From positions 1 to 55,553 of the forward strand of contig NZ_AJLK01000060.1 of assembly GCF_000317205.1 (NCBI RefSeq): a DNA stretch of 55,553 bases, given 5' to 3'. The stretch's first letter is position 1. Each line of letters begins with the position of its first letter. Shown one piece after another: positions 19,523 to 37,073 of the stretch. Made by a program: the position numbers and the translations under genes. Source of the stretch: Fischerella muscicola PCC 7414. GTDB lineage: Bacteria > Cyanobacteriota > Cyanobacteriia > Cyanobacteriales > Nostocaceae. The notes under the pieces are model-generated. The model had not been told where the DNA came from. It saw only the letters and a program-made list of their open reading frames with translations, and made no database searches.

Positions 19523-20713
19523 TCAGGTTGGTGTTAGCATGAGCAATTGGTCTTTTAGGAGCGATCGCACTTGCTTTAAATCTAGCTGCACAACAACATC
19601 ATCCCGCAAAATTTCTGCTACTGTTTTCTTCCCCTCACAGGCTTGCAGAAATTTTAATTCGGATTCCGATAAGTGTACGATTTGGTAGTCGTAATTGAAT
19701 ACACACTGGCTCGGAAACCCATCTATACAGGGATTACGCTCAGCAATTGCTGCCATTAAAGAATCATCATTTGACCAGTCGGCTTTGGTGATGGGTAGAC
19801 GACCAAGAAAAAATTCGTAGTGGGTGACTTCTGGGTCTAGCAATTCTATGAGACGGTAACGTTGGCGATCGCTCAATTCACCTGCCCTGACCATCAATTC
19901 CGGTGCTTTGCCCAAAAGTCGCTCCAATTGCCAGAAACCAGGATTTGAGAAGCCGATAAACTCTAATCCGGAAGCGTCGATGAGTTCAAACAGCGTGTCT
20001 ATATTGTAATCAATTTCTTGAGGATGGACATACATGTCAGCAAAGCATTCATCTCGCTGATTTTCCAAAGACCAACGCTCTCTTTCTCGCTTGACAATTC
20101 TGTTGTTTTCTGGTAGACAGGCAAATATCTGTCGCCCTACTTGGACACCATCACGATAGTCACCGCGTTTTTCACCTTGAATCAGGGCGATCGCTTTTTG
20201 CATGAGTTGAATTTCCCAGCGTCCTAGTTCCCCGTACACAAAAATATGCATTAAGCCGCCTGGAGCTAGTTTACTCGCCAAGGCTTGAATACCGCGAATC
20301 GGGTCGCCCAAGTGATGCAGTACACCCACACAGTTAATTAAATCAAACTCACCCGAAAGCTGTGCCACATCGTAAAGACTGAGGTGATGGAACTCGACAC
20401 GATTCGCTCCTGAGCGTTTGCAGCGTTCTCTGGCGACATCCAAAGCACCAGCACTCAGATCAATCCCGACTACAGAAGCATGAGGATTGAGGTGAACTAA
20501 ATACTCTGTTCCTACTCCTGTACCACAACCAGCATCTAAAATGCGGATGTCTTGCCTTTTGGGTTTTTGCCCAGTGCAGAAATTATAAGCGGCTAGCCAA
20601 TTCCAGCGCCAGTTGTAGCCAGGAGGTGGCTCATCCAGCAACGGTTCTGGTGGAAAAGGATAGGTATCGTAGAGTTTCGCGACAGCAGTACTAACAGTTT
20701 GGGAATCGGACAT
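19523..20713 (-). CDS. Class I SAM-dependent methyltransferase with C-terminal extra domain
   Basis: A 396-residue methyltransferase. The SAM-binding motif ILDAGCGTGVGTEYL is near residues 58-72, followed by the acidic strand-2 end VVGIDLSAGAL and motif IV-like INCVGVLHHLGDP. This is the Methyltransf_11/25 type acting on small molecules, lipids or proteins; the substrate is not readable. The last 60 or so residues (VHLSESELKFLQACEGKKTV to the end) look like a small winged-helix or PqqD-like domain, as seen in a subset of cyanobacterial methyltransferases. The gene lies alone between the atp and apc operons. Confidence 0.8.
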   Translation of the reverse strand: MSDSQTVSTAVAKLYDTYPFPPEPLLDEPPPGYNWRWNWLAAYNFCTGQKPKRQDIRILDAGCGTGVGTEYLVHLNPHASVVGIDLSAGALDVARERCKRSGANRVEFHHLSLYDVAQLSGEFDLINCVGVLHHLGDPIRGIQALASKLAPGGLMHIFVYGELGRWEIQLMQKAIALIQGEKRGDYRDGVQVGRQIFACLPENNRIVKRERERWSLENQRDECFADMYVHPQEIDYNIDTLFELIDASGLEFIGFSNPGFWQLERLLGKAPELMVRAGELSDRQRYRLIELLDPEVTHYEFFLGRLPITKADWSNDDSLMAAIAERNPCIDGFPSQCVFNYDYQIVHLSESELKFLQACEGKKTVAEILRDDVVVQLDLKQVRSLLKDQLLMLTPT

Positions 20714-24708
<3,995 letters not shown>

Positions 24709-24830
24709 ATCAGTGACCAGTGAAGAGTTATCAGTGAACAGGCGTATGCTGGGGATTAGCGCCATAAACCCTTTCTACCAATTGGTCAGTGTTCTTTACT
24801 GATAACTGATAACTGATAACTGTCAAACTT
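24709..24830. repeat. Short tandem repeats downstream of apcE
   Basis: CAGTGACCAGTGAAGAGTTA, then several TGATAACTGATAACTG copies. This is the usual degenerate heptamer type. Confidence 0.7.
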
Positions 24831-25209
24831 TACCCTTTTGCCCGCTTAAAAAAACTGAGCATGTTAAGAGGGAGAATCAGGGGAAAATTTTCTCTCCTGA
24901 TTCTTCTTCTCAATCTTTCGTAACATTGTTTTCAGATTGTAATTATGGAAGCAAACATGAAAAAGAATGTTACAAACTGTTAAAAGCAGTCATAATTGCT
25001 CAGCATAATGCCCGAAAATAATTCCGGAAGGTAGCTGAGTTACAAAGCTTGTGTAATTGCCATTACTCAGGCAGTCTCAAAACATAATAGCTTCAGTAGT
25101 TATTTGACTGTTGAATCTAGAGGACGAAAAAACAAAGCTACTATCAAACCGTAAAGTCGCACCAGTGTAATCTAAATTCTGGTTTCATTAGTACTGGAGG
25201 AATCCATTA
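24831..25209 (+). promoter_or_regulatory. Leader and presumed promoter region of apcA
   Basis: A roughly 380-base gene-free stretch between apcE and apcA. A hairpin AGAATCAGG/CCTGATTCT (24873-24904) may attenuate transcripts leaving apcE. The rest is an AT-rich leader that probably holds separate strong apcA promoters, as in other apc clusters. GGAGG lies 8 bases before the apcA ATG. Confidence 0.6.
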
Positions 25210-25695
25210 ATGAGTATCGTCACGAAAGCGATCGTGAATGCAGATGCAGAAGCCCGCTACCTCAGCCCCGGCGAACTGGATCGGATCAAGAGCTTTGTTA
25301 CCAGCGGTGAGCGCCGTCTGCGTATTGCTCAAGTTTTGACCGACAACCGCGAGCGGATTGTTAAGCAAGCTGGTGATCAGCTGTTCCAAAAACGCCCTGA
25401 CGTTGTATCTCCTGGTGGCAATGCTTACGGTCAAGAAATGACCGCTACCTGCTTGCGTGACCTGGATTACTACCTCCGCCTCATCACCTACGGTGTGGTT
25501 TCTGGTGATGTTACCCCCATCGAAGAAATCGGCGTTGTAGGCGTTCGTGAAATGTACAAATCTCTCGGAACTCCTATCGATGCTGTTGCAAGTGGTGTAA
25601 ACGCAATGAAGAACGTTGCTGCTTCTTTGTTGTCTGGTGAAGACGCTGCTGAAGCTGGCGCTTACTTCGATTACCTCGTTGGTGCTATGTCGTAG
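25210..25695 (+). CDS. apcA: Allophycocyanin alpha subunit
   Basis: A 161-residue phycobiliprotein of the core cylinders. The phycocyanobilin-attachment Cys81 is in [14 protein letters not shown]. The start [20 protein letters not shown] is typical. Codon use is strongly biased toward C-ending codons, as expected for one of the most abundant proteins of the cell. A GGAGG ribosome-binding site is well placed. apcB follows after 65 bases. Confidence 0.99.
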
Positions 25696-25760
25696 GTGAA
25701 GCTGTTTCTCCTTTGGAAACAGAAGTATTGCAATACGGTTGGAAATAAGGAAATAACAAC

Positions 25761-26246
25761 ATGCAAGACGCAATTACCGCTGTAATTAACTCTTCGGACG
25801 TTCAAGGTAAGTACCTCGATACCGGAGCCCTCGAGAAGCTTAAGAGCTACTTCTCAACTGGCGAACTGCGCGTACGTGCTGCTACCACCATCGCTGCTAA
25901 CGCTGCTGCGATCGTGAAAGAAGCTGTAGCGAAGTCCTTGTTGTACTCTGACATTACCCGTCCTGGCGGTAACATGTACACCACCCGCCGTTATGCAGCT
26001 TGTATCCGTGACTTGGATTACTACCTGCGCTACGCTACCTACGCTATGTTGGCTGGCGACCCCTCCATCCTCGACGAGCGTGTATTGAACGGCTTGAAAG
26101 AAACCTACAACTCCCTAGGTGTGCCCATTGGTGCTACCGTACAAGCTATCCAAGCTATGAAGGAAGTAACCGCTAGCTTGGTTGGTCCAGACGCTGGCAA
26201 AGAAATGGGTGTTTACTTAGACTATATCTGCTCTGGCTTGAGCTAG
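25761..26246 (+). CDS. apcB: Allophycocyanin beta subunit
   Basis: A 161-residue beta subunit. Cys81 (in [18 protein letters not shown]) binds phycocyanobilin. Asn71 in GGNMY is the residue N-methylated in phycobiliprotein beta subunits. It pairs with ApcA to form the allophycocyanin monomer. Codon use is as biased as in apcA. A structured 226-base spacer separates it from apcC. Confidence 0.99.
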
Positions 26247-26749: not shown

Positions 26750-26859
26750 GCTAGTGGTCTGCAACCTAACTTTGAGAGGTTAAATAAAAAACCGCACCAG
26801 ACGCAGAGACAGCAGAGGAAAAGAAAGAGAAAGAGAAAGAGAGGATCAAGACCACTAGC
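26750..26859. repeat. Short segment with 11-base terminal inverted repeats
   Basis: GCTAGTGGTCT (26750-26760) and AGACCACTAGC (26849-26859) are perfect inverted copies. They enclose a purine-rich tract of AAAGAG hexamer copies. The right arm overlaps the stop codon of the minus-strand fusion gene. It may be a repeat insertion or a shared transcription end for the convergent genes. Confidence 0.55.
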
Positions 26860-29800
26860 GTAGATAGGACGAAATACAGGTTGGGGTTGTTTTGGTTTGC
26901 AATTCTTCTATTTTCAATCCTTCTGTGGAAGGCGGATCATTCAATCGCCGATTCATGTTTACATTGGGGGTTTCAGAAGTTAAGTAGAGGATGCCCTTGT
27001 AAATCAATTTATGAAGCCAATCTTGATTAATTGCCGTTGCATAGGCTGCCCATTTAGGCTGGCATTTATTGATATCTTGCAACAGACGGTACATTTGTTC
27101 ACTGATGGGGTAAGTAGTGAAATAGGGGTTATTCGGAGAGAATAACTCGATTTGACGCTCTCCTGTTCTGGGGTTAGTCTCCAGTCTGAATCGCAAATCA
27201 GGAGACAGCGCCAGAAAGTAATCATCAATCTGTTGTTCTTCTAATAACTGCCGTTGGCGGAAATACTCCTGCACTTGCTGGTGAATTGGCTGATTGGGAT
27301 TGTGGATTGTGCGGCTGTAATAGGAGCCTTTATGAGTAGCACCAACCTGACAGATGAGGATATAACCAAAGTTAACTGCCTTTAAACCCGTGCTATGGAA
27401 ATTCTCCAGCCACTGGTCTAACTTAATGTTGTATTCCTCCAACGTCTGATTAAAAGCCGTGTGGCAGTGGGGAACTGAGAAAAGAATGTCATTGCGATCG
27501 GCAGTATTCAGTACCAATTTGTGGGCTGGTTCTCCTTGCCACCACTGTTCTAGTTTAGATTCATATTCTTGGAGATTCACTAAGTCTGTAACAATAAACA
27601 GCCTACCTTGAGGTGCAAGTTTGTTTGCACTCTCAGTAATAATTCGAGCCAAAATTTCTTCACCACCCATACCCCCATCGCGAAAGCAACATTCCTGACT
27701 TGGGCTAGGAACAAAGGGGGGATTGACCAGAATTGTATCGAAATAACCTCCGGTTGGTTCGTAAAGATTTCCTAGATAAAAGTTGATATTATATATCCCA
27801 TTCAGTTGAGCATTAAATCGGGCAAAGCGAATTGCCCGTGGGTTAATATCAACTCCGATAACTTCTTGGGCATAACGACTTGCCACTAAGCTTTGAATCC
27901 CACTGCCACAACAGAGATCCAAAACTCGATTGGCTGGATATTGGGGAGCTGTGTAAACCAATCCCATGCTGTCCATACCTACGTACATGACAACATCTTC
28001 ATCAAAGTGATCTTCTGCCAGTATCATGTAGCGATGATCCGTAGCCACATACAGTCCCGCAACGGCAAATAAATCGACTTGTGAAGCCCAATCTTGATCA
28101 CGCTGAATTAACATGCCCAAGCTACATAAAGTTGAGAATAACTCATTCCCAAAAATTTCTTGTAGTCTGGATTTTGTCAATGCACACCGCAGTAAAAACA
28201 GACGAATTAGGTCTCCTAGTATGGATTGGGGTAGACGGTAGCGATCATAGTAGTGTAAATATGTCGGCTCAATTTGTTGCTGCGAAGAAACACCCAACAA
28301 ATTGCAAATATTAGCTTCGTTATAGCCCGTTTGATGTAAAAATTCATACAATTTGCCTAGAATGCGTCGGGCAGAGAAGTTTTCATTTTCAAAAGGTGCA
28401 AAGGTTTGGTCTGAGGCTGAGGGTAATGGGGAATCTTGAGGTAATGGTTTAACGTAGGAGTACGCAGATTCTAATCTGTAGATACCGAGTTGTTGCTTTG
28501 CCCATTCAATGCGTTGGGTAAATTCAAAGTGAGTCAAACGCAAATCGATTCGCATTTGTTCTAGCCAACTCTCGGGCGCATTGAAAACAGCTAGCAACAG
28601 CTTGACTTCCTCAAAGGTGTAGGTTGAGGGTGGTACTTGCTGCTTGAGATCGACTAAAGTAGATTTACCTAAAGGATTTAGTAATAAAATTACATCGCTG
28701 GAAAGCTTTGTCTGGAAGGAACCGTAAAAAGGTGTCTCAGGGAAGAGCAAACTTGTTTCTTTATATTGAGCGCCCTTAGCAGAGAGTACTTGTAATTCTT
28801 CTGGAGACCAAGGACAGCCATCGGTTTGGCCGAAGAATAATGCCCGATCAAGCTTTGCCATTAAATCAGTGACATCGGGGACACCTAGAGGAAGTCCATG
28901 GGGAAGCACAACATCACCAACTTTTGCCAAGTGATCCTCGTAACTACGAATGGGAACACGACGTTTGCAGATCCAGAAGTTTTCTAGCGCTAAATAATCA
29001 ATATCTGTTCCTAAGAATGTAGCGATCGCCTCCAAGGGCGTTTCCACAATAGGTTGTCCTGCAACATTAAAGCTTGTATTAAGTAATACAGGTGTTCCCT
29101 GTCGTTCTTCCACTAATTTGTAGCATAGTCGATAAAAGTATGGGTTGTCCTGCTCTGTCACTGTTTGCACTCGTCCTGTCCCATCCACATGAGTCACGGC
29201 TGGGATCTGCTCGTGAAACTCGGGCTTAATCGGCGATACGAGCAGCATAAAAGGTGCAGCCACATTTTGTTCAAATACCTGGGAAACGGCTTCTAGAGGA
29301 ATGACAGGTGCAAAGGGACGAAATGCCTCACGGAATTTTACCCTCATATTCAAAATATCTTTCATGCGTTTGAAAGTGGGGTCAGCCATAATCGACCGAT
29401 GTCCCAATGCTCGCGGCCCATACTCTGCACCTCCTTCAAAGCGAGCCACAATACTGCCTTGTGCCAGCACTTGAGCGCTACGAGCAATCATCTCATCTGG
29501 GGTTAACTCCTCAACTTCAATAGAGTCTTGGAAGTGCCGAATAGCTTGACAGACTTGATCAAAGTCATAACGACGGCCAAGGGTTGCTTGAGTTAAGGGT
29601 ACTCGCTTCTGTCCAGCGCTGATCGTGTTGTATGCCCATAAGGCACAACCAGCAGCAATCCCACTATCACCTGCTGCTGGAAAGATAAAGATATCATCTA
29701 GTTGGAGTTGCCGTAATAATTCGTAGTTAGCAACAGAGTTCAAGCCCACACCACCAGCAATACAGAGTTTTCGCAGTCCTGTGCGCTTAATTGCTAAATT

Positions 29801-30643
29801 GACAATATGCAACAATGCTTGTTCTAGTTCTTTCTGCACCTTATATGCTAGGTCAACCAGATAGGGGCGGAGATAAGGTTTGCCTTCTCCTGTGTCATAG
29901 CGTTTTTCCAGTGCAGCAACTTCCAAAAAGATATCGTAGGCAGAAATTTTCAGGCTAAAAGATTCTTCGGTTGTCTGAATCCAGCGATGCCAGTTCGGTT
30001 GTTCTCCTCCAAAAGGAGCCAAACCCATAAGTTTTCCTGCTTCCGCGTGCTGAATCTGATTACCAACTTGGGTGACAAAGCCAGCTTTACGTGTGATGTA
30101 CTCATAAACAAAACCGAGGGTTGAGAGTTGAGCCAAGTGAGCCGCAACTGTCTCATTATGCAGCGTTGTAATTGTCTGTCCCCGTCCCTCGTATAGAGTA
30201 TAAGATTCAGTGCAATGAGCAGGGGTAGTACTGCCTGAAGCATCCACTACCAAGATCAGGGCTTGATCGAATCCAGAAGGCCAGTAAGCTGAGTAAGCAT
30301 GAGCCAAGTGGTGACTGGGAATTCGTATGACTTTATCTACGATTTCAGCAGGCAACACCCGGCGGAGAATGTCAGGCGCGCAATCGTGACCAGGCATATT
30401 TGCGGTAATTGTTGCCAGATCACTCAGGGTAATGTTGCAAGCATCCAAACAGTAACGCATTGCTTCCGCCGGAATTTGCATTTGTGCAGCCACACCAGGA
30501 GCATGGAGCATGTATCCAGGACTATATTTGTGGCGATCGAGCCTTTCTTGCTCAATTGCGACCACAATTTCACCATCTTTCGCGATCGCGACTGATCGCT
30601 CATGTCCTAAATTAATTCCCATATGGTATTGGTATTGTGTCAT
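26855..30643 (-). CDS. Carbamoyltransferase-methyltransferase fusion protein
   Basis: A 1262-residue two-enzyme protein. Residues 1 to about 345 match the Kae1-like half of NodU/CmcH/TobZ O-carbamoyltransferases: GINLGHERSVAI, the metal/ATP HHLAHAYSAYW at about 111-121, VVDASGS, AGGVGLNS and GDSGIAAG. Residues about 360-560 are the matching C-terminal half: FEGGAEYGPRALGHRSI, FRPFAPV, LNTSFNVAGQPI. Residues about 575-760 are unassigned. Residues about 790-1110 form a class I methyltransferase with a helical lead-in, SAM motif VLDLCCGSGIQS at 907-918 and catalytic NPPF at 974-977, recalling the DUF7059-linked and HemK/N6-adenine type. A tail (about 1135-1222) may be a small winged domain. The substrate is unknown; carbamoylation followed by methylation of one metabolite is an inference. 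No biosynthetic partners flank it. Confidence 0.85.
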   Translation of the reverse strand: MTQYQYHMGINLGHERSVAIAKDGEIVVAIEQERLDRHKYSPGYMLHAPGVAAQMQIPAEAMRYCLDACNITLSDLATITANMPGHDCAPDILRRVLPAEIVDKVIRIPSHHLAHAYSAYWPSGFDQALILVVDASGSTTPAHCTESYTLYEGRGQTITTLHNETVAAHLAQLSTLGFVYEYITRKAGFVTQVGNQIQHAEAGKLMGLAPFGGEQPNWHRWIQTTEESFSLKISAYDIFLEVAALEKRYDTGEGKPYLRPYLVDLAYKVQKELEQALLHIVNLAIKRTGLRKLCIAGGVGLNSVANYELLRQLQLDDIFIFPAAGDSGIAAGCALWAYNTISAGQKRVPLTQATLGRRYDFDQVCQAIRHFQDSIEVEELTPDEMIARSAQVLAQGSIVARFEGGAEYGPRALGHRSIMADPTFKRMKDILNMRVKFREAFRPFAPVIPLEAVSQVFEQNVAAPFMLLVSPIKPEFHEQIPAVTHVDGTGRVQTVTEQDNPYFYRLCYKLVEERQGTPVLLNTSFNVAGQPIVETPLEAIATFLGTDIDYLALENFWICKRRVPIRSYEDHLAKVGDVVLPHGLPLGVPDVTDLMAKLDRALFFGQTDGCPWSPEELQVLSAKGAQYKETSLLFPETPFYGSFQTKLSSDVILLLNPLGKSTLVDLKQQVPPSTYTFEEVKLLLAVFNAPESWLEQMRIDLRLTHFEFTQRIEWAKQQLGIYRLESAYSYVKPLPQDSPLPSASDQTFAPFENENFSARRILGKLYEFLHQTGYNEANICNLLGVSSQQQIEPTYLHYYDRYRLPQSILGDLIRLFLLRCALTKSRLQEIFGNELFSTLCSLGMLIQRDQDWASQVDLFAVAGLYVATDHRYMILAEDHFDEDVVMYVGMDSMGLVYTAPQYPANRVLDLCCGSGIQSLVASRYAQEVIGVDINPRAIRFARFNAQLNGIYNINFYLGNLYEPTGGYFDTILVNPPFVPSPSQECCFRDGGMGGEEILARIITESANKLAPQGRLFIVTDLVNLQEYESKLEQWWQGEPAHKLVLNTADRNDILFSVPHCHTAFNQTLEEYNIKLDQWLENFHSTGLKAVNFGYILICQVGATHKGSYYSRTIHNPNQPIHQQVQEYFRQRQLLEEQQIDDYFLALSPDLRFRLETNPRTGERQIELFSPNNPYFTTYPISEQMYRLLQDINKCQPKWAAYATAINQDWLHKLIYKGILYLTSETPNVNMNRRLNDPPSTEGLKIEELQTKTTPTCISSYLR

Positions 30644-30778: not shown

Positions 30779-32242
30779 TTAGTGGGAAAGCGAGACTGGC
30801 AATTTAATCAAAAACTCCGTTCCTTTGCCTAACTCCGAGGAACACTCCAACATCCCACCATGCTTCTCTACAACTATTTGATAGCTAATAGAAAGACCTA
30901 ACCCTGTTCCTTTACCCACAGGTTTAGTTGTGAAAAATGGGTCAAATATTTGCTTTCTAATTTCTTCTGTCATGCCAATTCCATTATCAATAATCCGAAC
31001 TGCAACATGCTCATCTGCAATGACTTCGGTGTGAATTTTAATAGTAGGTGTAAAAGAAGATTGTTCTTGATCTCCCTCGTACATTACCTGATGCTGAATT
31101 TCCCCATTAATTAGTTCGCTGGCACAATAATACAAAACTGCATCGATTGCATTGCTGAGCAAGTTCATAAATACTTGATTTAGTTGTCCTGCATAGCACT
31201 CTACTCGTGGCAATTCACCGTATTCTTTAATCACCTGAATGGGGATATGGTTTATTCCATTCAGACGACTTTGTAAAATCATTAAAGTACTGTCAATTCC
31301 TTCATGGATATCAACAGGTTTGATCTCCGCCTCATCCAAACGGGAGAAATTACGAAGTGACAGTACAATTTCGCTAATCCGCTCCGCCCCCATTTGCATG
31401 GAAGACATAATTTGAGGCAAATCAGCTAGTAGAAAATTTAAATCGATCTTCTTGATCTTTTTTTGTATTTCTTCTACAGGAGTAGAATAGTGCTGCTGAT
31501 AAAGGTAAATTAAATCCAATAAGTCTTTGACATACTCATTTGCATGAATTATATTGCCGTAAATAAAGTTAATTGGGTTATTAATTTCATGGGCAATTCC
31601 AGCAACTAACATGCCTAAACCTGACATTTTTTCGGCATGAATCAGTTTAGCTTGGGTTTGTTTCAGTTCTTTTAAAGTTGCTTCTAGCTGCTGTTTTTGC
31701 TGCTTCAATTGCTCTCTTGATTGGAGAAGTGTTGCTTCTGTTTGCTTGCGTTCACGATTCTCAACACGAAGCTGCTCAATTCGCATCTGTAACGCTTCAT
31801 TTGCCTCTTTCAAAGCAGCCTGCGCCCGTTTTCTATCAGTGATATTTGTTAAAGAGCCACATATTTCTCCTGGATCTTCGGAACGGGCGGCTAATTCTAA
31901 CCAGATAATCTCTGTATTTTTATGATGAAAACGTAATTCCCAACAAGCAAGATCCTGTTTAGTATCTATCTGAGTTAAAAAATTCAGCCAAAGCTCTCGA
32001 TCCTCAGCATGGAGATAATCATCGATTGGGCGATTCAAACATTCTGATGCACTATATCCTAAGGTAAGTGTCCAGGCTTTATTCAGAAGTGTAATATTCC
32101 CTGCTTTATCACACTTAAATACAATTTCACGCAGATTCTCGACCAATTCCCGATAACGTCGTTCTGATTCGGATATTTGCTCGATTAAACGGTACTGAAT
32201 CTGTGTGTGTAATTCATTATCAACTAAAAACTCTGGCTTCAT
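30779..32242 (-). CDS. Soluble PAS-domain sensor histidine kinase
   Basis: A 487-residue histidine kinase with no membrane segment. A PAS domain with its PAC-like end ([15 protein letters not shown]) covers about residues 25-140. A coiled coil (about 140-210) follows. The HisKA segment [16 protein letters not shown] carries the phospho-accepting His218. The ATPase domain has the N box ([12 protein letters not shown]), G1 (IIDNGIGM) and G2 ([10 protein letters not shown]). The [11 protein letters not shown] type is common among cyanobacterial kinases. No response regulator is adjacent, so the partner is unknown. It lies 135 bases upstream of the fusion gene on the same strand and could share its transcript. 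Confidence 0.92.
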
Positions 32243-33154: not shown

Positions 33155-33963
33155 GTGTGTATATGTTTGATTAATGTAAATTTGAGAAAATAAGTTATTT
33201 TGCTGTCGTAGTGGGAAATAGCAATTAGTTGGGCGTGTTAATAAATACAGAGTTTTGCGATGCAGTTAATAATGCAACAGTAGTAGCCTCTGATGCATAA
33301 AATTTTACTAGTCATCTTTAATTATTTAAATCAGTAATTTCTTTGAAGTTAGCCTATCTTCATTGAAAGTTTGTATGAAGAGAAGCTAAATACATCTATA
33401 AACTGAGATGACTTATATATGAAAAGTTTATGGATAGGCAATAGTTGTTCAGTAGAAAGATGTCTATTACATCCCAAATTACTATTGGGGAAATTTTGTT
33501 AAGTTTGGCAACATTCAAGACAACAGAGGATGAACTTACAAAGATTTAGAGTATGGGAATGCGATCGCATCTTCTCAAGGTAGGAATTCTGTCAAAATTA
33601 TTTTCGTATGTACAACAGGACTAAATTCTTATACCAATTCAAAACATGTTTAAAGGTAGATAACCCCACCCGCCTAACGGCACCCTAAGCGATCTCGCTT
33701 AGGGTTGGGGAGGGGTCTGATACTATTCATGTGTTGGATTCTTTTTCCAAATAGGTATTAATTGCCTTTCTGCACTCAACTGGCATTGGGGCTGCATGAA
33801 GGAGTTTATGAATTGAGAGTTGTTTTTTGATTATTGTTTGTTATTGTTGACTACTAACTACTATATAGACGTACACCATAGAAGTTCTAATAGATGCCCG
33901 TAGGGGAACTTCTAGGGAAGTACGCGTCTACTAACTACAAAATTTACATCTTTAATCGAAGTC
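33155..33963. other. Long gene-free region with a palindromic repeat
   Basis: An 800-base divergent spacer upstream of the isochorismatase-like gene and ftsW. It is mostly AT-rich. A dispersed palindromic repeat lies at about 33660-33720, and repeat fragments with GTAGGGGAACTTCTAGGG occur at 33898-33932, close to the ftsW start. No convincing small gene is seen. Confidence 0.55.
33662..33716. repeat. Palindromic dispersed repeat
   Basis: CCCTAAGCGA and TCGCTTAGGG (33683-33704) form a perfect 10-base stem with a 2-base loop. Flanking ACCCCACC and GGTTGGGGAGGGG extend the complementarity. It is typical of Nostocales extragenic palindromes. Confidence 0.65.
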
Positions 33964-36074: not shown

Positions 36075-37073
36075 TTACTTATGTCTCTGTTGATGCCACT
36101 GCCAGGCGTGGGTGATGATTTCTTTGAGGGATGAATACTTTGGTTGCCAGTTTAAGATTTTTCTGGCTTTGTCGCTACTGCCAATCAACACAGGTGGATC
36201 ACCAGGACGGCGATCGCATTCTACAACTTTAATATTACGACCTGTTATGGACTTAGCAGTCTCAATCACTTCTTTGACTGAGAAACCATTGCCATTTCCT
36301 AAATTAAAAACTTCGCTGTCACCACCTCTTAACAAATATTCCAAGCCTAAAACATGAGCATCAGCTAAATCATTGACATGAATGTAGTCTCTAATACAAG
36401 TACCGTCGTCTGTGGGGTAATCCGTACCAAAAACAGAAATTGATTCGCGCTTACCTAAAGCTGTTTGTAGTACCAAGGGAATTAAATGGGTTTCTGGAAT
36501 ATGGTCTTCTCCCAACTTCCCATGAGGATCAGCGCCAGCAGCATTGAAATAGCGAAAAATGACTGATTTGAAACCATAGGCAGTATCAAAATCAGACAGA
36601 ATCTTCTCCACCATCAACTTAGTAGCACCATAAGGATTGATTGGATTTTGGGGATGATTTTCGGGAATGGGTATGACCTGGGGAACTCCATAAGTTGCAC
36701 AAGTAGAAGAAAATACAAATTTATTTACAGAAGCTGCCTGCATCGCTTCTAGCAAGGTGAGGGTTCCGACAACGTTATTGCGGTAGTATTTGGCAGGGTT
36801 AGTAACCGATTCGCCCACATAGGCATAAGCAGAAAAATGCATCACTGCCGCAATATCATGACTTTGAAATAATTGATCCAACAAAACACGATCGCTTGTA
36901 TCACCAACTACAAGTTCTACTTGTAAAACTTTTTCTACCAAATCGCGATGTCCGTACACCAGATTATCCAGAATTAACACTTCATAACCAGCCTGCAATA
37001 GGGCTAGTACGGCATGGGAGCCGATATATCCAGCCCCTCCCGTAACCAAAATGGTGGGCTTTCCAGGCGACAT
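36075..37073 (-). CDS. galE: UDP-glucose 4-epimerase
   Basis: A 332-residue extended short-chain dehydrogenase. The NAD-binding GGAGYIGSH is at about residues 11-19. The catalytic Tyr-Lys pair is in NPYGATKLMVEKIL, with the Ser/Thr in FSSTCATYG. The GalE hallmarks YFNAAGADPHGKLGE and DGTCIRDYIHV are present. It interconverts UDP-glucose and UDP-galactose for polysaccharide and galactolipid supply. It stands alone on the minus strand. Confidence 0.94.
   Translation of the reverse strand: MSPGKPTILVTGGAGYIGSHAVLALLQAGYEVLILDNLVYGHRDLVEKVLQVELVVGDTSDRVLLDQLFQSHDIAAVMHFSAYAYVGESVTNPAKYYRNNVVGTLTLLEAMQAASVNKFVFSSTCATYGVPQVIPIPENHPQNPINPYGATKLMVEKILSDFDTAYGFKSVIFRYFNAAGADPHGKLGEDHIPETHLIPLVLQTALGKRESISVFGTDYPTDDGTCIRDYIHVNDLADAHVLGLEYLLRGGDSEVFNLGNGNGFSVKEVIETAKSITGRNIKVVECDRRPGDPPVLIGSSDKARKILNWQPKYSSLKEIITHAWQWHQQRHK

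Follow-up and report, generated by a model that had tools for sequence, protein, structure and literature searches.

A single gene in the window, by which we mean the whole 55,553-nucleotide stretch of Fischerella muscicola PCC 7414 DNA analysed here (contig NZ_AJLK01000060.1), joins a predicted carbamoyltransferase to a predicted class I methyltransferase and ends in a strongly conserved peptide tail (Table 1). On the minus strand, positions 26855-30643 form one stop-free frame of 1262 codons, and the plus strand is stop-rich over this interval. An earlier note on this DNA had proposed a one-protein fusion of 1262 residues at this place, without stating its strand; translation bears it out, and the four motifs that the note had listed (HHLAHAYSAYW, AEYGPRALGHRSI, DLCCGSG and NPPF) are all present in the translated protein. 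Three of the Pfam families that it had put forward scored above their cut-offs, namely Carbam_trans_N (109.6 bits against 24), Carbam_trans_C (214.8 against 27) and MTS (64.3 against 23), whereas DUF7059 fell short (19.2 against 27). The two carbamoyltransferase domains occupy residues 104-335 and 390-560, and the MTS domain residues 895-1033. Both enzyme families are known already; among the open-licence literature matches listed, we recognised no paper on a fusion of the two.

The fusion is neither an assembly artefact nor a single-strain joining, possibilities that the earlier note had named as its own refutation, nor is it a recent joining. The C-terminal 699 residues, used as query at an E-value of 1e-12 or better, matched 15 of 217 genomes of the same family: 12 hold an intact fusion, in frames of 1264-1280 codons, and three hold remnants. 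All 12 family copies could be aligned, seven of them including that of the window and five more from residue 63 on. Carriers include Nostoc sp. 106C, T09 and FACHB-110, Atlanticothrix silvestris, Dendronalium phyllosphericum and Dulcicalothrix desertica. Among 386 sampled genomes of the phylum there were five matches, of which three were already known, one (G485, locus L054) is a new full copy in another family and one (G274) is partial, a 595-residue frame with the methyltransferase and no carbamoyltransferase. Seven matches came from 388 genomes of the order, five of them known members of the same family and two (G574 and G586) full copies in a third family. Fifteen intact copies thus span three cyanobacterial families, together with three remnants. 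The two halves were seen as adjacent separate genes in no genome, although no search was aimed at such pairs. The broad scan of genome contigs used a single protein query, which reaches close relatives only and hardly covers other phyla.

In the remnant of G108 an internal stop is present and most of the carbamoyltransferase half is gone; in G221 only the last 133 residues persist, adjoining what appears by eye to be a piece of the kinase. Calothrix sp. PCC 7716 (G110, locus L047) has lost the middle of the cassette, where a 453-residue frame, transposase-like by eye (L047:6572-7933), stands where most of the fusion and the end of the kinase would be; what is left is the hydrolase, a truncated kinase and a 421-residue methyltransferase remnant with an intact tail.

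Table 1. Features of the fusion gene and its conserved surroundings (RRE, RiPP recognition element; RiPP, ribosomally synthesised and post-translationally modified peptide).
Feature	Position in window	Strand	Basis or remark
Fusion gene, 1262 residues	26855..30643	-	carbamoyltransferase, RRE-like domain, DUF7059-like domain and methyltransferase, C-terminal domain, linker, conserved tail
Carbamoyltransferase half, residues 1-562, TobZ/VtdB/GdmN/NovN type	28958..30643	-	Pfam, PDB sequence, Foldseek
RRE-like middle domain	28481..28693	-	AlphaFold2 model 2; Foldseek TbiB1 5v1u, non-significant; no PqqD profile match
Methyltransferase half, residues about 780-1140, DLCCGSG and NPPF	27224..28306	-	MTS; weak DUF7059 match at 809-851
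C-terminal domain	26987..27193	-	possible counterpart in tail-less stand-alone methyltransferases
Fast-evolving linker, residues about 1222-1240	26924..26980	-	pN/pS 0.44; insertions in L202 and L203
Near-invariant C-terminal tail LKIEELQTKTTPTCISSYLR, residues 1243-1262, candidate self-substrate	26858..26917	-	conservation, codon analysis
PAS histidine kinase, 487 residues, directly upstream of the fusion	30779..32242	-	PAS/HATPase
Isochorismatase-superfamily cysteine hydrolase, 206 residues	32534..33154	-	upstream of the kinase
Conserved stretch of non-coding DNA around GAAATTACTGATT, upstream of the hydrolase gene	33325..33350	-	alignment of seven loci

The protein ends in a near-invariant stretch. 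When all 15 intact copies, drawn from three families, are compared, 14 of the final 18 positions are invariant (I-x-E-L-x-T-K-T-T-P-T-C-x-S-S-Y-L-x), and the last residue is R in 13 copies and S in two. A codon analysis of the C-terminal half in 13 fusion copies gave a ratio of non-synonymous to synonymous change (pN/pS) of 0.20 overall and of 0.05 for the last 18 codons, where synonymous change is normal. The 20 codons preceding the tail reach 0.44, the top value among the 20-codon windows listed. A pN as low as that of the tail occurs in only 13 of 684 other overlapping 18-codon windows. The tail is kept in L202 despite an overall identity of 63% to the window protein, and the linker of L202 has insertions. 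When a profile built from the C-terminal 41 residues was run on 13 of the 15 genomes with an intact fusion, the top match was the fusion itself in all 13.

Signs of the tail, or of a precursor peptide, in any other gene were sought in several ways. In seven aligned loci, no conserved small open reading frame (ORF) was recognised by eye in the DNA preceding the hydrolase or in the gaps that separate hydrolase, kinase and fusion, and with no shared frame recognised in these intergenic alignments we set aside a separate precursor between the genes as unlikely. The DNA pattern for TKTTPTC occurs in 18 of the 217 family genomes, 15 times at fusion loci or remnants and three times elsewhere (14 matches for the reversed control); the two examined of these three (G071 and G072) lie out of frame within a kinase gene and were dismissed. 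The looser pattern TTP[ST]CxSS[YF] occurs at 34 places in 31 of the 217 genomes, 15 of them fusion loci or remnants (nine for the reversed control). Nine of the other 19 places are one identical 27-base string, reading TTPSCLSSF, at the start of another gene (L204, L206 and seven further loci); since an extra base just upstream breaks this frame in three of the nine genomes, the string is probably leader DNA rather than a peptide. Four of the remaining ten places were examined and discarded, having no ORF of at least 25 codons in that frame. The tail profile gave 16 further weak matches (E-values of 0.0067 to 8) in 13 fusion genomes; of the three examined and rejected, that in G010 overlaps another gene and those in G074 and G073 are the TTPSCLSSF string. 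Among the pattern and profile matches examined, the tail was confirmed in no protein or peptide besides the fusion and its remnants.

The N-terminal half belongs to the NodU/CmcH/TobZ carbamoyltransferases, and carbamoyl-transfer activity is predicted for it. Its top solved relatives by PDB sequence are VtdB (7xb6), NovN, GdmN and TobZ (E-values of 1e-71 to 3e-62). The ligand pockets were checked through motifs and, for this half alone, through a usable structure model: AlphaFold2 model 1 (residues 63-1262, 16 sequences, mean predicted local distance difference test (pLDDT) 49.8) is good for the carbamoyltransferase half, weakly of use for the middle domain, and places the former on TobZ (3ves, E-value 4.6e-30, Foldseek). 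Residues H14, K436 and S524 are invariant in seven aligned fusion copies; they were tentatively set opposite TobZ H14, K443 and S530 by coordinate offset, from the end points of the PDB sequence match and from variant names, rather than residue by residue. The likeness to TobZ, VtdB, GdmN and NovN extends over the entire N-terminal half by Pfam, PDB sequence and fold, but these are enzymes of small-molecule pathways that lack an RRE-like domain, a methyltransferase and the conserved tail. At an E-value of 1e-75 or better, the half was found in one of 59 sampled genomes of the phylum, that of the window. In a plasmid collection 351 records matched, none with at least 80% query coverage in one place; of three plasmid carbamoyltransferases examined, two lie within clusters of small-molecule type and the third was uninformative. 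Viral contigs are rich in carbamoyltransferases of this family, with at least 587 relatives among the 600 pattern matches listed (the best 80 are loci L076-L155).

The second half is, by its above-cut-off MTS match, motif I and NPPF, assigned as a class I methyltransferase of the MTS superfamily using S-adenosylmethionine (SAM). The DUF7059 match stayed under the cut-off of 27 on the excised half (21.8 bits), and likewise in L055 (18.5 bits). Stand-alone DUF7059-like methyltransferases of this kind (L055 and the actinobacterial L167) share the kind of N-terminal domain and the methyltransferase core (33% and 24% identical where aligned), but have neither carbamoyltransferase nor tail. These tail-less proteins may hold a counterpart of the C-terminal domain, with 17-19% identity over the aligned part. 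Borosin methyltransferases belong to the tetrapyrrole-methylase family, and no member of that family appeared among the 16 Pfam models matching at E-values up to 0.01, so the half is not of borosin type. Relatives of this half on viral contigs numbered none with one query (A4), and one clear and two weak with another (A12). Its best-scoring solved relative by PDB sequence is a gentamicin N-methyltransferase, followed by 7rc2, which we take to be AerE, a peptide asparagine N-methyltransferase.

Models of the HemK/PrmC type of protein methyltransferase also match this half, below their cut-offs, which might point to a modifier of some other cellular protein or of RNA or another nucleic acid, in which the tail would serve for targeting. 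We consider this highly improbable: the PrmC equivalog scored 59.5 bits against a cut-off of 199.1, which sets the half apart from the PrmC/HemK release-factor type, and the patchy presence of the fusion (12 intact in 217 family genomes) argues against a housekeeping target.

The solved relatives of the two halves (TobZ, GdmN, NovN, VtdB and the gentamicin enzyme), together with the two small-molecule clusters on plasmids, lend more weight to another explanation, in which the two halves tailor one diffusible metabolite or sugar by carbamoylation and N- or O-methylation, its scaffold being encoded at some other place in the genome; the tail would then dock a partner protein or stabilise the enzyme. 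We regard this as quite possible and as a close rival of the reading that we favour. No polyketide synthase (PKS) or nonribosomal peptide synthetase (NRPS) partner or other scaffold gene recurs by eye in the flanks of the examined loci, however, and small-molecule tailoring alone leaves the near-invariant 18-mer behind a fast linker and the fold prediction for the middle domain unexplained. The statement in the earlier note that no PKS, NRPS or sugar genes flank the fusion holds for recurring PKS and NRPS genes, but an epimerase-family gene of the sugar-nucleotide type lies about 5 kb off, at 36075-37073.

That middle domain was modelled separately (AlphaFold2 model 2, residues 564-760, seven sequences, mean pLDDT 60.7). 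Three strands (651-654, 661-665 and 673-675) are followed by three helices (677-688, 691-700 and 705-721); in ten-residue blocks, pLDDT is 59 at the first strand and 70-85 in the blocks after it. Among the best 50 of 104 Foldseek matches, the one of highest probability (0.38, target TM-score 0.65, E-value 2.0) is TbiB1 5v1u, a lasso-peptide protein bound to its leader that is presumably itself an RRE. The order of strands and helices in the model agrees with a strict definition of RREs, and RREs fused to PF02543 carbamoyltransferases have been reported, as far as the accessible part of that source goes (PMC12710340). We call the domain RRE-like on its modelled topology only, since Foldseek gave no significant match and the profile comparison with PqqD domains came out empty.

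The genes upstream recur with the fusion. The sensor kinase that the earlier note had placed upstream is indeed a PAS/HATPase kinase at 30779-32242, although its HisKA match (20.9) lies under the cut-off of 26.9. Beyond it, the nearest solved relatives of the hydrolase are 3kl2, a putative isochorismatase (E-value 7.6e-38), biuret hydrolase, RutB and, more weakly, N-carbamoylsarcosine amidase, and because the last three are among them, the comparison suggests that the hydrolase may act on a ureido or carbamoyl group. The order hydrolase, kinase, fusion, all in the same direction, was found at 13 of the 15 intact loci (the window, L021-L026, L054, L044, L045, L058, L042 and L046), with the kinase of L058, L042 and L046 taken from ORF size only and their hydrolase from search positions. 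The two others, L202 and L203, are without the hydrolase and have large kinases flanking the fusion on both sides. Upstream of the hydrolase gene, the conserved non-coding GAAATTACTGATT stretch is perhaps a regulatory site.

Such an arrangement could mean that the fusion makes a signal, small molecule or peptide, which the PAS kinase senses and the hydrolase destroys. The fixed gene order, the kinases on both sides in L202 and L203 and the ureido- or carbamoyl-amide substrates of the near relatives of the hydrolase are in keeping with this. So is its distribution: of the 22 family genomes out of 217 with a hydrolase at an E-value of 1e-40 or better, the 13 with hydrolases 83-100% identical are the 12 with an intact fusion plus G110. 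However, the other nine, which have no fusion match, carry the hydrolase at 64-72% identity, and the kinase follows it in all four that were examined. The pair therefore works without the proposed signal synthase and forms an independent unit, next to which the fusion lies. Nor was a recurring response regulator recognised in the three-gene loci, and we hold this explanation to be improbable. Two further isochorismatase-like proteins were seen, a second, different one of 199 residues that adjoins the cassette in G485 (L054:5878-6477), and one of 186 residues, recognised by eye, that adjoins a fusion-less hydrolase-kinase pair in G009 (L166:8236-8796).

The phycobilisome genes on the other side (a linker polypeptide and two phycobilisome proteins at 21295-26246) lie on the strand opposite to the fusion. 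Their position beside it is as the earlier note had said, but their relevance is not upheld: outside the cassette, gene content varies across most of the examined loci, and phycobilisome genes were recognised by eye at only one other, in the same-genus G002. As the flanks change between genomes, we reject a link and take this neighbour to be incidental. Past these genes lies a second class I methyltransferase of 396 residues (19523-20713, minus strand), also present in G002, with no sign of a tie to the fusion.

We tentatively favour, at somewhat less than even chances, the reading that the fusion carbamoylates and methylates a peptide, with its own tail as the favourite substrate. Two modifying enzymes in one chain with an RRE-like domain, a conserved end peptide behind a fast-evolving linker and the lack of precursor or scaffold genes recognised nearby would fit a peptide-modifying enzyme. 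The earlier note had suggested a two-step modification of one substrate, which is plausible in view of the fixed fusion and the crocagin precedent, although the identity of the substrate is unproven; its account had left out that hydrolase and kinase recur, as well as the RRE-like domain and the near-invariant tail, and these features speak for a peptide more than for a small metabolite of the classical kind. From these observations we infer a putative order of steps. The RRE-like domain, perhaps also the C-terminal domain, would grip the peptide, of which the tail IxELxTKTTPTCxSSYLx, reached via the flexible linker, is the likeliest. The carbamoyltransferase half would activate carbamoyl phosphate with ATP and place the carbamoyl group on a peptide amine or hydroxyl, the invariant tail lysine being a good candidate for conversion to homocitrulline, and the methyltransferase half would transfer methyl groups from SAM. 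The kinase may regulate expression, and a possible task of the amidase-like hydrolase is to remove or recycle a ureido or carbamoyl group. The strictest form of the proposal, a one-gene RiPP system with enzyme and substrate in one chain and modification of the tail strictly in cis, seems to us rather unlikely; in this form, the modified peptide would perhaps be released as a signal controlled by the neighbouring kinase and hydrolase.

Several observations weigh against a peptide substrate. For the carbamoyltransferase half, the solved relatives have small-molecule substrates, and the top solved relative of the methyltransferase half works on an aminoglycoside. RiPP core peptides usually vary, whereas this tail is near-invariant. 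No peptidase or exporter recurs by eye at the examined loci, the hydrolase-kinase pair exists without the fusion, and two fusions exist without the hydrolase. Model 1 failed over the methyltransferase half and the tail, with pLDDT mostly below 50. As to the middle domain, Foldseek found nothing at an E-value of 0.001 or better, and hhalign against 14 aligned PqqD domains showed no homology by profile, with probabilities of 0.2% for it and 0.8% for the C-terminal stretch. Winged-helix folds and Foldseek matches are moreover known to yield many false RREs, according to the available text of PMC12710340.

Known peptide systems offer partial parallels. In the part of a preprint that could be consulted (PMC13174530), StdF is a fusion of a NodU-like carbamoyltransferase with a peptidase domain that carbamoylates a peptide lysine. 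It resembles our protein in having such a carbamoyltransferase within a fusion; it differs in its peptidase partner and separate precursor gene, where we find a methyltransferase partner and found no separate precursor. The crocagin pathway has a carbamoyltransferase, CgnI, and an N-methyltransferase, CgnL, that act on one ribosomal peptide product, a pairing of activities on one substrate like that envisaged here; in the portion of the article seen, however, CgnI and CgnL are encoded by separate genes, as is the precursor CgnA (PMC10070186). In borosins the enzyme bears its own substrate at its C-terminus (PMC7878506, in the excerpt available). The likeness is one of possible principle only, a candidate substrate at the enzyme's own C-terminus whose modification is putative here, and the fusion differs in its MTS-type methyltransferase, invariable candidate core and additional carbamoyltransferase.

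NodU/TobZ-type carbamoyltransferases are familiar chiefly from small-molecule pathways, and the accessible part of the StdF preprint counts only two members of the family in RiPP biosynthesis (PMC13174530). If the favoured reading is true, the fusion would represent a new enzyme architecture and a compact, readily testable system for modifying peptides. It would then also offer genome mining a new handle where a separate precursor gene is absent. Even with a small-molecule substrate, a single gene would tie a two-step chemistry to one substrate. In either case, the recurring hydrolase and kinase offer testable leads to the role of the fusion in cyanobacteria.

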